Assembly: GCA_009773805.1 (NCBI GenBank)
Contig: WTXA01000001.1
Span: 372,001-436,000 of the forward strand
Length of the DNA: 64,000 nucleotides
From: Fusobacteriota bacterium
GTDB taxonomy: Bacteria; Bacillota; TC1
Direction of reading: 5' to 3'
Shown here: one piece after another, positions 34,630-62,252 of the stretch
Layout of the letters: each line of letters starts with the position of its first letter
Position numbering within the stretch: the first letter of the stretch is position 1
Position numbers and translations under genes: made by a program
Notes under the pieces: model-generated
Databases searched by the model: none
Seen by the model: only the letters and a program-made list of their open reading frames with translations
What the model was told of the DNA's origin: nothing

Positions 34630-34635
34630 TAAAAT

Positions 34636-34735
34636 AATCATCAAGAGAGGTGAAGGGATAGGCCCTATGATACCTCAGCAACCTGCAATTGCAAGGTGCT
34701 AAATCCTACAGTTTGACTGCAAGATGGGATGTATA
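34636..34735 (+). promoter_or_regulatory. SAM-I (S-box) riboswitch aptamer
   Basis: Carries the S-box core in order: ATCAAGAGAGGTGAAGGGAT, AGGCCCTATGA, CAGCAACC and AAGGTGCTAAATCC, then GATGGGAT closing P1. S-adenosylmethionine binding to this class turns off methionine biosynthesis genes by favouring a terminator. AAGATG at 34721-34726 can instead pair with CATCTT at 34749-34754, around an ATAATT/AATTAT stem, as antiterminator. It therefore controls metA. Confidence 0.95.
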
Positions 34736-37061: not shown

Positions 37062-39296
37062 TCAATCAACTAATTTCCTACCATTAATATCAATCAGATA
37101 CTTCTTTAAAGTTACTACCACATCAAGATCCCTGTCATTTCTATAATATTTGATATCATTCTTTTCAAGTTCAGCAACAATATCCTTAGAAGGGTGACCA
37201 TATTTATTTTCACCAACAGAAAATATAACACTTTTAGCTTTTAAATCACTATATATTCCTGTTCTATATGAATTTTTACTACCGTGATGAGGAGCTTTTA
37301 TAATATCATAATCTAATCTATCCATAGCTAGACTATCTAGAATTTCCAAATCACAATCTCCTGTAAGTAAAATACTTGATTCTCCATATTCTAAACTTAG
37401 CACTATAGAGGAAGCATTAGAATCCTCGTTATTGTCCCTATTGTCAGGATTTATTATATCAATCACTATATCACCTAAATATATCTTTATTTCATCATGA
37501 ACTATTTCTATTTTCTTTTCATATAATTTCAACCAATCTTTGTAATCTTCTTCTCTATTATTTGGAATCCATATTTTTGATACTGGAATTTTTTTTAATA
37601 TAGTTTCCAGTCCACCTCTATAATCGTTATCCCCATGGGTACTGATCATTATATCTATTTTCTTAATACCTTTTCTTTTCAGATAAGGTATTACTTCCCT
37701 TTTACCCATATCCTGGTAGTCATTTTTAGCCCCTCCATCAATTAAAATAACTTTACCCATCTCTTTACACTCTATAAGGATACAATCCCCTTGGCCTACA
37801 TTTATAAAGGTTACTATCACTTTCTTGCTATCAAAAAATTCTAACAAAGTATTATAGAATAATAAAACTATAAAAACCCCTAATAACACCTTCCTATAAT
37901 ACTTCTTGAATATTTGATTGTTCCAAAAAATATATAAAAGATAAAATAATATAATGTTGGCTAATCCCCAGGGCTTTCCAATATATACTGGTAAATTGAT
38001 ATTACTAAAAACTAATGTTATTTGTTCTAACAAAATTAGTATTAACTTCAAGAAATATGTTAAAAGACCTATTAAATCTATAAAAAATGGAAAAAACATA
38101 AAGATACCACTAATAAATATTATAAGTTGAATTAAGGGAGAAATTAAAGGAGTGAAGAATATACTCATCAAAGAAACTTCTTGGAAATAAAAAATAAGTA
38201 TTGGCCAACTCAAGATTACACTTATAATTCCACTTAGCAATATCTTGACTATGGGTTTCTTTATCTCTTTTATTTTTTCACTATATAATAATAACCCGAT
38301 TGAGATGACATATGATAATTGAAAAGAAATATAGAATATAATTCCAGGATTTATAATTATTAGAACCACTGATGATAACATCAATGCTAACATTTCATAT
38401 TTCTCTATTTTAAACACTTGGAATATTTTAATAATAATAAGAAATAAAATAACCCTCCAAACCGATGGAGTATCAGTCATCAATCCATATAAAATAAGAG
38501 GAGTTAAAAAAAAGATGTACTTTATTAGTCCTTTTTTAGGAGTAATTACAAATAAGAAAAGCAAAATATCCAAGGCAGCACCAACTTGTGATCCTGATAC
38601 GGCTTGTAAATGTAAAATGCCCATTTTTCGCCATGTATCAACTTCAGTCTCTTCTAAACTACTCACATTCCCAAGAAAAATACTTTCGATGAATCTTGTT
38701 TGATTTCCAAGTTTCTTTTGGAGTTTAGCAATATAATATTCCTGATATTCAAAAAGATAATATCTTAGATTTTTAATCTGCTCAAGAATTATAATATTAT
38801 TAGATTTTGTAGTGAATTTGATCCCTTTATACTTTAGATAGTCCTTATATGAAAAACCTCCCTTGTTCGCCTCACTTTTAGGTAATTCTAAATAACCTTT
38901 GAGGCTTATAATCATTCCCGGTTTTAATTCTTCCTTAGTTGTCAGCATTACTAGGCAATGGGGTTTATTATTTAATCTCACAATATGTTTTTTATTTTTC
39001 TCAACAGTCAAAATTTGAGCATTTCCAGAATATAGACCATCAAATTTAAGAACACTAATATAGTCTTTAGAAAATATATAACCACGTAATATACCCAATA
39101 AAACTATAATTAATAGAAATATATAGGTGTATCTAAACTTTTCATCAAAAATCAACAATAATCTACATTTATATACTAAAAATAATATAAACAGTAGGAA
39201 CATCAACAAATAATGCACATTAATTAAATCCATCGGAATTAGCAACCCAATTATGAACACAATCGTGATAATTATCGAATTCAGCTTTTCTTCCAT
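37062..39296 (-). CDS. comEC: DNA internalization protein ComEC/Rec2
   Basis: A 744-residue competence channel. The N-terminus has membrane helices and an OB-like DUF4131 region; a multi-helix Competence domain spans about 200-470. The C-terminal metallo-beta-lactamase-like domain has FINVGQGDCILIE, LIDGG, STHGDND and APHHGSK. The metal motif HxDxDH reads HxDxDY here (H554, D556, D558, Y559), so one ligand is replaced. It moves single-stranded DNA across the membrane. The ATG overlaps the comEA stop (TGATG). Confidence 0.92.
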   Translation of the reverse strand: MEEKLNSIIITIVFIIGLLIPMDLINVHYLLMFLLFILFLVYKCRLLLIFDEKFRYTYIFLLIIVLLGILRGYIFSKDYISVLKFDGLYSGNAQILTVEKNKKHIVRLNNKPHCLVMLTTKEELKPGMIISLKGYLELPKSEANKGGFSYKDYLKYKGIKFTTKSNNIIILEQIKNLRYYLFEYQEYYIAKLQKKLGNQTRFIESIFLGNVSSLEETEVDTWRKMGILHLQAVSGSQVGAALDILLFLFVITPKKGLIKYIFFLTPLILYGLMTDTPSVWRVILFLIIIKIFQVFKIEKYEMLALMLSSVVLIIINPGIIFYISFQLSYVISIGLLLYSEKIKEIKKPIVKILLSGIISVILSWPILIFYFQEVSLMSIFFTPLISPLIQLIIFISGIFMFFPFFIDLIGLLTYFLKLILILLEQITLVFSNINLPVYIGKPWGLANIILFYLLYIFWNNQIFKKYYRKVLLGVFIVLLFYNTLLEFFDSKKVIVTFINVGQGDCILIECKEMGKVILIDGGAKNDYQDMGKREVIPYLKRKGIKKIDIMISTHGDNDYRGGLETILKKIPVSKIWIPNNREEDYKDWLKLYEKKIEIVHDEIKIYLGDIVIDIINPDNRDNNEDSNASSIVLSLEYGESSILLTGDCDLEILDSLAMDRLDYDIIKAPHHGSKNSYRTGIYSDLKAKSVIFSVGENKYGHPSKDIVAELEKNDIKYYRNDRDLDVVVTLKKYLIDINGRKLVD

Positions 39297-39889
39297 CAGA
39301 GTTTTATATATGGACGCATTTTTTCTAATGTTTTTTCGCCTATACCTGATACATTCAATAACTCTTCCAAAGTTTGATAACGGACTATACTTTTTCGATA
39401 TTCTAAAATATTGCTTGCCATTACTGGTCCAATCCCTGGTACTAATTCTAGATCCTTGGCTGAAGCTTTATTAATACTAATTAATTCGTCATTATTGCCT
39501 TCACCATTAACCTCACCTTCATTCACTGCATCTATGAATGGAACATAAATATCTTGTTCATCTTTTAAGAACATCGCTAAATTCAATGGCAATAGGTCGG
39601 CATTTTCTAAGGGTTCAGCCTTCTCCAGAGCATCGTTCACTCTAGAGTTTAATGGAAATTCATATATTCCAGGATTCTTAACCGCTCCTTTGATATTGAC
39701 TACCAACTTTTCATCATCAACAGAATTGTTATTTTTATCTTCTACTATTATGTTTGAAGGTTTTTCATTAGCAAATACACTATATTTTGTTGTTCTACCT
39801 AGGTAATATCCAAGCGTAACTATTAAAAATATTAGAATAAATAAACTAGTCATTTGATATTTCTTATCTAGCGCCATAAATCGATTCAT
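39296..39889 (-). CDS. comEA: Competence protein ComEA
   Basis: A 197-residue DNA receptor for transformation. One N-terminal membrane helix (about 13-33), then an SLBB-like domain (VVNIKGAVKNPGIYEF) and two C-terminal helix-hairpin-helix motifs (INKASAKDLELVPGIGPVMA and LLNVSGIGEKTLEKMRPYI) that bind DNA. Followed without gap by comEC. Its ribosome site lies inside a strong hairpin, described separately. comEB is absent, which is common because it is not needed for uptake. Confidence 0.93.
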   Translation of the reverse strand: MNRFMALDKKYQMTSLFILIFLIVTLGYYLGRTTKYSVFANEKPSNIIVEDKNNNSVDDEKLVVNIKGAVKNPGIYEFPLNSRVNDALEKAEPLENADLLPLNLAMFLKDEQDIYVPFIDAVNEGEVNGEGNNDELISINKASAKDLELVPGIGPVMASNILEYRKSIVRYQTLEELLNVSGIGEKTLEKMRPYIKL

Positions 39890-39895
39890 AAGAAA

Positions 39896-39927
39896 ACCTC
39901 CTTTGCTAATATTTAAGCAAAGGAGGT
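39896..39927 (-). promoter_or_regulatory. Hairpin embedding the comEA ribosome binding site
   Basis: A perfect 12-bp inverted repeat (39896-39907 and 39916-39927; 8-nt loop). On the - strand the 5' arm begins ACCUCCUUUGCU, like the 16S rRNA 3' tail. The 3' arm ends in AGGAGGU, which is the only good Shine-Dalgarno of comEA, 7 nt from its ATG. U-rich UUUUCUUAU follows, so the hairpin may also terminate rsfS readthrough. Pairing is seen in the sequence; function is inferred. Confidence 0.8.
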
Positions 39928-39956
39928 AAAACTTCTTAGTATTAATTGTTTTTTTA

Positions 39957-40280
39957 CTACTTTAATTTTCCAGACCAAAGATCTTCTAGACTATATTTTG
40001 TTCTAGCTTCTTGGTCAAATATATGGATAATTAAATCACCAAAATCTATTAGCACCCATTCATTGGATTTTTCTCTTCTGAGCTTTTTTTCACCCTTTTC
40101 TTCTAAGGCTTCTTCACAATAATCAGCTAAAGTTTCAATATGCTTTTTATTCATACCAGTAGCAACTACAAAGCAATCAGCTATAATACTAATTCCATCA
40201 AGGTCTACTATTTTCACATCAATTGCCTTCTTCTCGTTCAATAGATTTTCAATTATTATACTTTTTTCGTAACCTGTCAT
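39957..40280 (-). CDS. rsfS: Ribosomal silencing factor RsfS
   Basis: A 107-residue RsfS that binds L14 on the 50S subunit and blocks subunit joining when nutrients are scarce. Matches the family along its whole length (DIKIVDLDGISIIADCFVVATG, EWVLIDFGDLIIHIF). The start overlaps yqeK by 4 nt. Last gene of the nadD-yqeK-rsfS cluster, conserved in Firmicutes. Confidence 0.95.
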   Translation of the reverse strand: MTGYEKSIIIENLLNEKKAIDVKIVDLDGISIIADCFVVATGMNKKHIETLADYCEEALEEKGEKKLRREKSNEWVLIDFGDLIIHIFDQEARTKYSLEDLWSGKLK

Positions 40281-55411: not shown

Positions 55412-56092
55412 TTAAATCATTTTCTCTTCTTTAAAGCTATAATAACTGTTATCACCAATAATAATGTGGTCTATTACATCTATTCCTAACAATTGACCAC
55501 CACTTTTTATTCTTTTTGTTACCTCAATATCTTCTCTACTTGGTGTTGCATCACCACTAGGATGATTGTGAGCCAATATAATTGCGGCAGCACTTTTATT
55601 TATTGCTGATTTGAATAATTCTCTAGGATGCACAATAGAAGAATTCAAACTTCCAATAGATACCGTTTCAACTCCCAATAAGAAGTTTTTTGTATTTAAC
55701 ATTAATATGATAAAATGTTCCTTGTTTAAACCTCTTAGATTATTTTCTAAAACGATAGAAGCATCTTTTGAGGATAGTATTTGTTTCTTTTCAATTTTCT
55801 CAAATTTACTTCTTTTTCCAATTTCAAATGCAGCTTTTAGCATGATACTTTTATCTTTTCCAATACCTTTGATCTTACAAAGTTCTTCAACAGTTAGTTG
55901 ACTAATATTCTTTATGGATCCAAAGCGATGTAATAAATTCATTGATACATCTATAGCAGTATGTTCCCTATAACCACTCCTAATTATAATTGCTAACACT
56001 TCTTGATCAGAAAGATTATTTATCCCAACTTCCATTGATCTTTCTCTAGGTCTTAAATGCTTTGGCATATCTTTAATTTTCTTTTTTTCCAT
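55412..56092 (-). CDS. radC: RadC family protein (JAMM domain)
   Basis: A 226-residue RadC. An N-terminal helix-hairpin-helix region (LCKIKGIGKDKSIMLKAAFEIG) precedes a JAMM metalloprotease-like domain with HNHPSGDATPSREDIEVT (H-x-H-x10-D). Despite the name, no repair role is proven; radC is induced with competence in several Firmicutes. I chose ATG 56092, 7 nt after AGGAGG. That ribosome site lies inside a strong hairpin, described separately. Confidence 0.93.
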   Translation of the reverse strand: MEKKKIKDMPKHLRPRERSMEVGINNLSDQEVLAIIIRSGYREHTAIDVSMNLLHRFGSIKNISQLTVEELCKIKGIGKDKSIMLKAAFEIGKRSKFEKIEKKQILSSKDASIVLENNLRGLNKEHFIILMLNTKNFLLGVETVSIGSLNSSIVHPRELFKSAINKSAAAIILAHNHPSGDATPSREDIEVTKRIKSGGQLLGIDVIDHIIIGDNSYYSFKEEKMI

Positions 56093-56098
56093 AAACAA

Positions 56099-56137
56099 AC
56101 CTCCTATGCTTTGAAATATTATTTCAACATAGGAGGT
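56099..56137 (-). promoter_or_regulatory. Hairpin embedding the radC ribosome binding site; also terminator-like for the BMP gene
   Basis: Arms ACCTCCTATG (56099-56108) and CATAGGAGGT (56128-56137) extend inward through TTGAAAT/ATTTCAA, giving 17 pairs with one 2-nt bulge and a 3-nt loop. On the - strand the 5' arm starts ACCUCC and the 3' arm contains AGGAGGU, the Shine-Dalgarno of radC, 7 nt from its ATG. UUUGUUUAU follows. The arrangement repeats that of comEA. Confidence 0.8.
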
Positions 56138-56181
56138 CTGGTATAGCTTATTTTATTTAATTTTTACATTAATTAAGAAAA

Positions 56182-57198
56182 CTATTTGCTTTTTTTGTAA
56201 AGATCAGTTACATCGATTTTACCAGATTTAATGTCAGCGATAATTTTTTCGATATCTGCTTTAACTTTTTGAACTTGAGGTTCTTTATCATTAAATACAA
56301 ATGTTACAACGCCTTCTTTAACTCCGTAGATATAGTTAGTTCCTTCGAAGTCACCTTTTGCAATTTTACCAACAACGTCGGCAATAGCTATAGTCAACTT
56401 AGCACTTGCTGAAGCTGATAGTGATTTTTCGTATGCAGCAAATAACTCAGGGCTTGCACTTGCACCAATAGCCAATTTACCTTTTTGTAATGCAGCTTCA
56501 TATCCGCCTCTTGATGCTTGGTTAGCATAAGACATTACAATTCCAGCGCCTTGGTCTATGAAAGTCAAAGCTTGCTCTTTAAGTTTGTTAACGTCATCGT
56601 TAGTTCCTGTGAAAGCAGTTACCACTTCAATGTTAGGCATAATGTACTTAGCTCCAAGAACATAACCTTCCATGATAGTTTTGAATGCAGGAATTTCAGC
56701 TCCGGCAACACCAGCTACTTTGTTGATTCCAAGGCTTTTAGCCAAAAGACCAGCTGTAACACCTTGTAGGAATCCTTGTTCAACACCGTCAGCTAATACT
56801 CCAGCAACGTTTGAACCGTTACCAAAGTTAGAGTTTCTGTCTGAACTTGTAATTAGAAACTTAGCATCTGGATACTCTTTAGCAACTTCGTTAACAGCAT
56901 CAGTAAACTGAGCACCGTTAGCAATAATTACGTTGTAGCCATCTTTAGCATAATTTCTGATAACTTGTAGGTATTGAGCTGCTTGAGTGTTTTCATTATA
57001 AGCTATTTCAGCATCATAATCTTTCTCAGTCAACTTCAAAGCTTCATAAGCTCCTTGGCTCCATCCACCATCGTTGATAGCTCCAGTTAAAGCTAAAGCA
57101 ACTTTAACTTCTTGACCTTTGTCTGCTTCTTTTTCCCCACAGCCTACAGCTAGTATACCAAATAATAGTACAGCTAAAACTAATAGAATTTTTTTCAT
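56182..57198 (-). CDS. BMP family substrate-binding lipoprotein (probable nucleoside binder)
   Basis: A 338-residue lipoprotein. The signal peptide ends in the lipobox LAVGC (Cys20). The periplasmic-binding fold of the BMP/PnrA family follows (VALALTGAINDGGWSQGAYE; ANGAQFTDAVNEVA; VAGVAGAEIPAFKTIMEGYVLGAKY). PnrA-type proteins bind purine nucleosides for an ABC importer. No ATPase or permease gene is adjacent: rex lies upstream and radC downstream. GGAGGG precedes the ATG. Codon use looks biased toward high expression. Confidence 0.9.
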   Translation of the reverse strand: MKKILLVLAVLLFGILAVGCGEKEADKGQEVKVALALTGAINDGGWSQGAYEALKLTEKDYDAEIAYNENTQAAQYLQVIRNYAKDGYNVIIANGAQFTDAVNEVAKEYPDAKFLITSSDRNSNFGNGSNVAGVLADGVEQGFLQGVTAGLLAKSLGINKVAGVAGAEIPAFKTIMEGYVLGAKYIMPNIEVVTAFTGTNDDVNKLKEQALTFIDQGAGIVMSYANQASRGGYEAALQKGKLAIGASASPELFAAYEKSLSASASAKLTIAIADVVGKIAKGDFEGTNYIYGVKEGVVTFVFNDKEPQVQKVKADIEKIIADIKSGKIDVTDLYKKSK

Positions 57199-62040: not shown

Positions 62041-62252
62041 AAAAGGATCCACCTCCCCTAAGGGCGACGGATCGCGGTACCACCTTATTTTTAACTATTT
62101 GCTTTAACGGGCTAATCCGGTTCAAACTACTCTTAGTTCATTTGAACTGCTTCCAGGCTACCTTCTCCTATTACATATGAAAGGTTTCCACCATCCCCTT
62201 CTCTCTATGATATAAACATAGGTTACTCTTCCTGATCCTCACATTTACTCTA
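62041..62252 (-). promoter_or_regulatory. T-box riboswitch of valS (specifier GUA)
   Basis: The T-box sequence AAGGTGGTACCGCG lies at 62073-62086, inside an antiterminator that competes with a terminator stem (GGATCC arms, 62045-62073, then TTTTAT). In stem I, TCAGG/CCTGG and CCTAT/ATAGG flank an internal loop whose 3' strand is AGAAGGUAG. The codon in specifier position reads GUA (Val), matching valS. Uncharged tRNA-Val should prevent termination. Confidence 0.95.

Follow-up and report, generated by a model that had tools for sequence, protein, structure and literature searches.

A Shine-Dalgarno hairpin and an upstream GTAAA box common to comEA and radC: a conserved element and a possible start-site lock

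Within the stretch of DNA analyzed here (64,000 nucleotides, referred to as the window), two competence-type genes, comEA and radC, are each preceded by a hairpin that contains the Shine-Dalgarno (SD) sequence of the gene. This arrangement raises the question of whether both genes carry one and the same element and, if so, how such an element could act on their expression. The genes, their neighbors and the sequences discussed below are collected in Table 1. The match of the comEA product to TIGR01259 (E 1e-25) lies under the model's own cut-off. In the initial annotation the two genes had been termed unlinked, which is too strong, as 16 kb separate them; both are read in one direction from the same strand and belong to separate transcription units.

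Table 1 Positions in the window of the genes and sequence features at comEA and radC.
Feature	Position	Strand	Remarks
comEC	37062-39296	-	directly after comEA; TIGR00361 above cut-off
comEA coding sequence	39296-39889	-	ATG 39889-39887; HHH_3, SLBB and TIGR01259
comEA hairpin	39896-39927	-	SD AGGAGG at 39897-39902 in the 3' arm; scored terminator-like
AGTAAA box	39953-39958	-	25 nt before the comEA hairpin
rsfS	39957-40280	-	upstream neighbor of comEA
radC coding sequence	55412-56092	-	ATG 56092-56090; RadC PF04002 E 1e-46, NF000642 above cut-off
radC hairpin	56099-56137	-	17 pairs, 2-nt bulge; conserved with compensatory changes
TATACC, possible -10	56140-56145	-	17-nt spacing, 2 nt before the radC 5' arm; alone not significant
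TGTAAA box	56163-56168	-	25 nt upstream of the radC hairpin; candidate -35 or activator element
BMP-family substrate-binding lipoprotein	56182-57198	-	upstream neighbor of radC

The radC hairpin (56137-56099 on the minus strand, ACCTCCTATGTTGAAATAATATTTCAAAGCATAGGAGGT) is built from 11 outer and 6 inner pairs separated by a 2-nt bulge. Its SD, AGGAGG at 56105-56100, lies within the 3' arm and is spaced 7 nt from the ATG. The structure drawn in the initial annotation, with its 17 pairs, bulge, SD position and spacing, was thus confirmed on the sequence. Folding of the region gave -27.9 kcal/mol with z = -7.1, and no shuffle folded equally well. The twin hairpin of comEA (39927-39896 on the minus strand, ACCTCCTTTGCTTAAATATTAGCAAAGGAGGT) likewise ends in a 7-nt spacing to the ATG. 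Downstream of every stem follows a U-rich tract. The inner sequence of stems and loops varies between genes and genomes, only the SD and its complement being common, and neither hairpin matched an Rfam family above the gathering score. The window also holds a SAM riboswitch (34635-34730, plus strand) and a T-box leader (62057-62248, minus strand), both of which score above the Rfam gathering score.

The pattern ACCTCCT-N12-42-AGGAGGT occurs at two sites only in the whole genome (1,684,042 bases), namely those of comEA and radC. A looser search for CTCC...GGAG...ATG combined with folding returned one further strong SD hairpin at a real gene, amtB. The same three genes were the only ones with compact SD-burying hairpins among 688 SD-bearing open reading frames, counted in a census of 824 kb that comprised the window and 38 further stretches, together about half of the genome; matches of lower rank were mostly loose folds, several of them within upstream coding sequence. 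The amtB hairpin (G000:C1:613457-613512, minus strand; about -18 to -26 kcal/mol depending on the span folded) precedes an ammonium-transporter-like gene, whose name was assigned on sequence grounds.

Nine sites served to build a covariance model, with which the ten genomes of the class were searched; in each of them, the 150 best first-look candidates were scored. The model recovered the sites of both genes, two of them outside the training set (comEA of the sister genus, genome G005, at 53 bits, and radC of genome G001 at 31 bits), and missed radC of G005, which has a long loop. The element was found before no gene other than comEA and radC among these best 150 candidates of each of the ten genomes, and the remaining matches were terminators, reverse-strand echoes and noise; because the search scored that number of candidates, a weak extra member could escape it. 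The wider distribution over competence genes raised in the initial annotation did not appear: in the same genome, the start regions of dprA, comF and recA (located by sequence motifs) and of the pilB operon are free of the hairpin, which is why we do not regard it as a general mark of competence genes. The need for it may be limited to genes whose start is reached by transcription from the gene upstream. The same genome holds two different DprA-type open reading frames with an SGLAKGID motif (L064:12189-13065 and L065:4649-5792), one of which has an extra N-terminal part. Its type IV pilus operon (G000:C2:348000-362000) encodes PilB and PilT ATPases with T2SSE matches, and PilC-, PilD- and PilM-like genes are likely present as well.

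For comparison, 6 genomes were available at the level of the family, 10 at that of the order and 10 at that of the class, and conservation was followed within the class. Each of the six family genomes has the two hairpins. The sister family (G006-G009) shows no such hairpin, the radC upstream regions included, and none is seen ahead of radC in five distant Clostridia metagenome-assembled genomes either. The gene upstream of radC changes among the genomes between the BMP-family gene, FolC, Rex and an ArsD-like gene (FolC, the Rex of the relatives and the ArsD-like gene were named from sequence, without a profile search). As the element stays in place while this neighbor changes, it belongs to radC. 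Genome G002 retains the radC hairpin and has, upstream of it, a separate terminator-like stem with TTTTT behind it.

In order to assess the pairing itself, the 12 sites were aligned with trimmed arms entered by hand and the loop replaced by AAAA. In this alignment 97.5% of the cells pair, G-U wobbles among them, and five of the 12 stem pairs are altered on both sides, amounting to 13 compensatory cells. The covariation score was reached by none of 500 shuffles and was lost when the arms were slid by 1-3 nt. The initial annotation had proposed one common architecture for the two genes, and this stands, being specific to both in the genome and conserved in the relatives. Its own alternatives, that such hairpins might precede many unrelated genes or that the pair might lack conservation, fell away, as few genes carry one genome-wide and the relatives keep both. 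That comEA and radC share a real and selected element we regard as nearly certain.

In the sister genus (G005), comEA, radC, comEC and rex are broken by stops or frameshifts (G005:C1:938000-950000 and 956000-968000), mreB, holA and rsfS are intact, and the pilus-type ATPase is present as a fragment only. This genome may have lost DNA uptake, or the breaks may be errors of the assembly. The hairpins of this genome remain recognizable despite the broken genes, and the loop at radC bears a tandem duplication.

Upstream of every hairpin, at all 12 sites, we found a further feature that the earlier reading had overlooked, the hexamer (A/T)GTAAA. Its distance to the hairpin is 24-25 nt at 11 sites and 21 nt at the twelfth. 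Between lineages, the 24-nt spacer shows sequence identity at or near chance, with GTAAA still in place. No common word at a fixed place arose in 20,000 shuffles (six lineages within 1 nt, seven within 4 nt), and in the regions ahead of genes wGTAAA has a background frequency of 0.0016 per position. Since GTAAA is kept over a spacer that has drifted, the conserved unit comprises the box, about 25 nt, the hairpin and the start codon. The amtB hairpin is without a GTAAA box at the fixed distance. In two genomes (G004 and G003) the TGTAAA upstream of radC overlaps the end of rex, its last codon and stop (ATG TAA A), and the box thereby shares bases with that gene. A minimal AUG-UAA reading frame within the box was considered and dropped, as it is absent from comEA of four genomes.

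The position of the box would suit a promoter. At most sites, a -10 placed at 17- or 18-nt spacing from GTAAA comes to lie no more than 1-2 nt from the hairpin. Several of these sequences are good (TATAAT, TATTAT and TATAAA), and examples directly at the arm are TATAAT in radC of G004 and TATTAA in comEA of G001. Taken as a set, the -10 matches do not exceed what base composition would give (p 0.07, and 0.35 for independent lineages), so the promoter and its -10 are a step that we infer. The comEA of the window genome has a poor -10 match, the predicted start position would be a pyrimidine, and a sigma-70 scan at radC found no promoter.

A start-site lock at each of the two genes could account for this arrangement, and we hold the chances that it is the mechanism of the element to be about even. 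Each gene would have a dedicated promoter with GTAAA as its -35 or activator element, and transcription from it would start within the 5' arm, some 5-7 nt in. Polymerase running in from the upstream gene would produce an RNA with both arms, in which the hairpin closes and the SD is buried, and no protein would be made; such a polymerase may also terminate at the U-rich tract just ahead of the start codon. RNA from the gene's own promoter, putatively a competence promoter, would lack the ACCUC part of the 5' arm, leaving the SD largely free for translation. In the folding model, the predicted probability of an unpaired SD is 0.00 at 12 of 12 sites for the run-in RNA, against a mean of 0.56 for RNA beginning at nucleotide 7 of the arm. 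As the own-promoter RNA keeps a shorter stem, the model frees the SD only in part. More tentatively, and with doubts prevailing, the box and the hairpin might form a dedicated competence module in which only RNA made by a competence-specific RNA polymerase can be translated, a cellular two-gene lock of the type known from phage T4.

The hairpin could instead serve the upstream gene as an intrinsic terminator that overlaps the next SD for the sake of compactness, with the burial of the SD as a by-product. The U-rich tract behind every stem would fit, the comEA hairpin passes a terminator scan, and the short gap before either window gene offers no other terminator-like site. However, the radC hairpin fails that scan, the element stays with radC across four different upstream genes, and it persists in G002, where a separate stem and TTTTT lie upstream. 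Moreover, overlap of this kind is seen in just three of the 688 SD-bearing open reading frames and leaves the fixed GTAAA box unexplained, and we consider the terminator reading unlikely. A switch present in all comEA and radC mRNA, which a small RNA, an RNA-binding protein or a helicase would open in competence, is suggested by the single architecture on two genes that are co-induced in competence elsewhere (PMC6560143) and by the predicted full burial of the SD. We judge it improbable, as inner stem and loop differ, leaving no common binding sequence beyond the SD and its complement, as an RNA beginning near the box would offer no space for an alternative pairing partner, and as there is no Rfam match.

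Read as DNA, the near-perfect palindrome adjoining a putative promoter in both genes might be an operator for a dimeric repressor common to comEA and radC. Yet the inner stem bases vary freely while pairing, including G-U pairs that break the symmetry, and the loop length is highly variable, with the long duplicated loop of G005 as the extreme; a dimer would not accept such differences in arm spacing. We hold this to be very unlikely; the covariation of the stem pairs, with G-U wobbles, favors an RNA structure. It is hardly credible that two strong SDs gained their complements by coincidence: the SD does dictate about half of the stem, and at amtB this genome offers a third SD hairpin, different from the two, but the conservation at both genes in six genomes, the covariation and the fixed GTAAA box all contradict it. 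Among these readings, the fixed GTAAA box in the sequence points rather to a promoter combined with a lock, which would insulate the genes from run-in transcription, than to a regulated switch or a terminator.

Several further candidates were rejected. The stem is too stable for an RNA thermometer, and translational coupling fails because the upstream stop lies about 20-45 nt before the arm, beyond the reach of a terminating ribosome. Recent copying of one cassette to both genes was likewise discarded, since in most genomes the flanks and inner stems are alike only to the level of base composition.

Locks of this general kind are known from mobile elements. In IS10/Tn10, RNA coming in from outside folds over the transposase ribosome-binding site; here, by contrast, no transposon is involved and the genes are chromosomal, at conserved places. 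For gene e of phage T4, long run-in transcripts are locked, and a promoter within the 5' strand yields translatable RNA without that strand (PMC3014915). Translation-initiation hairpins that bury the SD, the start codon or both are also described for T4 soc, gene 49 and I-TevI (PMC3014915). The element at comEA and radC resembles that of gene e in its SD-burying stem, and RNA from the proposed own promoter would similarly lack the 5' part; it differs in lying on a bacterial chromosome, before two competence-type genes, with GTAAA instead of the T4 late promoter TATAAATA.

In pneumococcus, comEA and radC are late competence genes with near-zero basal RNA and about 2^9.8-fold induction (PMC6560143), and in view of this RNA pattern tight silence before induction is a known property of the pair. 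The late competence regulons of Firmicutes (ComX/SigH) carry a sigma-factor box on many genes, whereas the present element occurs on two only. In Legionella, RocC is described as a regulator of DNA uptake with the partner small RNA RocR (PMC9674577). Control of DNA-uptake genes after transcription would be the common point; a trans-acting small RNA and a ProQ/FinO chaperone act there, whereas the proposed lock lies in cis. In the literature searched, which covered few subscription papers, we found no earlier description of a hairpin over the SD of comEA. Such a mechanism has precedents in phage and transposons, and within that same literature a conserved two-gene chromosomal module with a promoter-like box was not found.

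The element provides a simple sequence signature. If the proposed lock is true, the choice of start site would be a second, translational lock by which chromosomal genes for DNA uptake are guarded against leaky expression, and RadC, a competence-induced protein of unclear function, would be linked specifically to ComEA.
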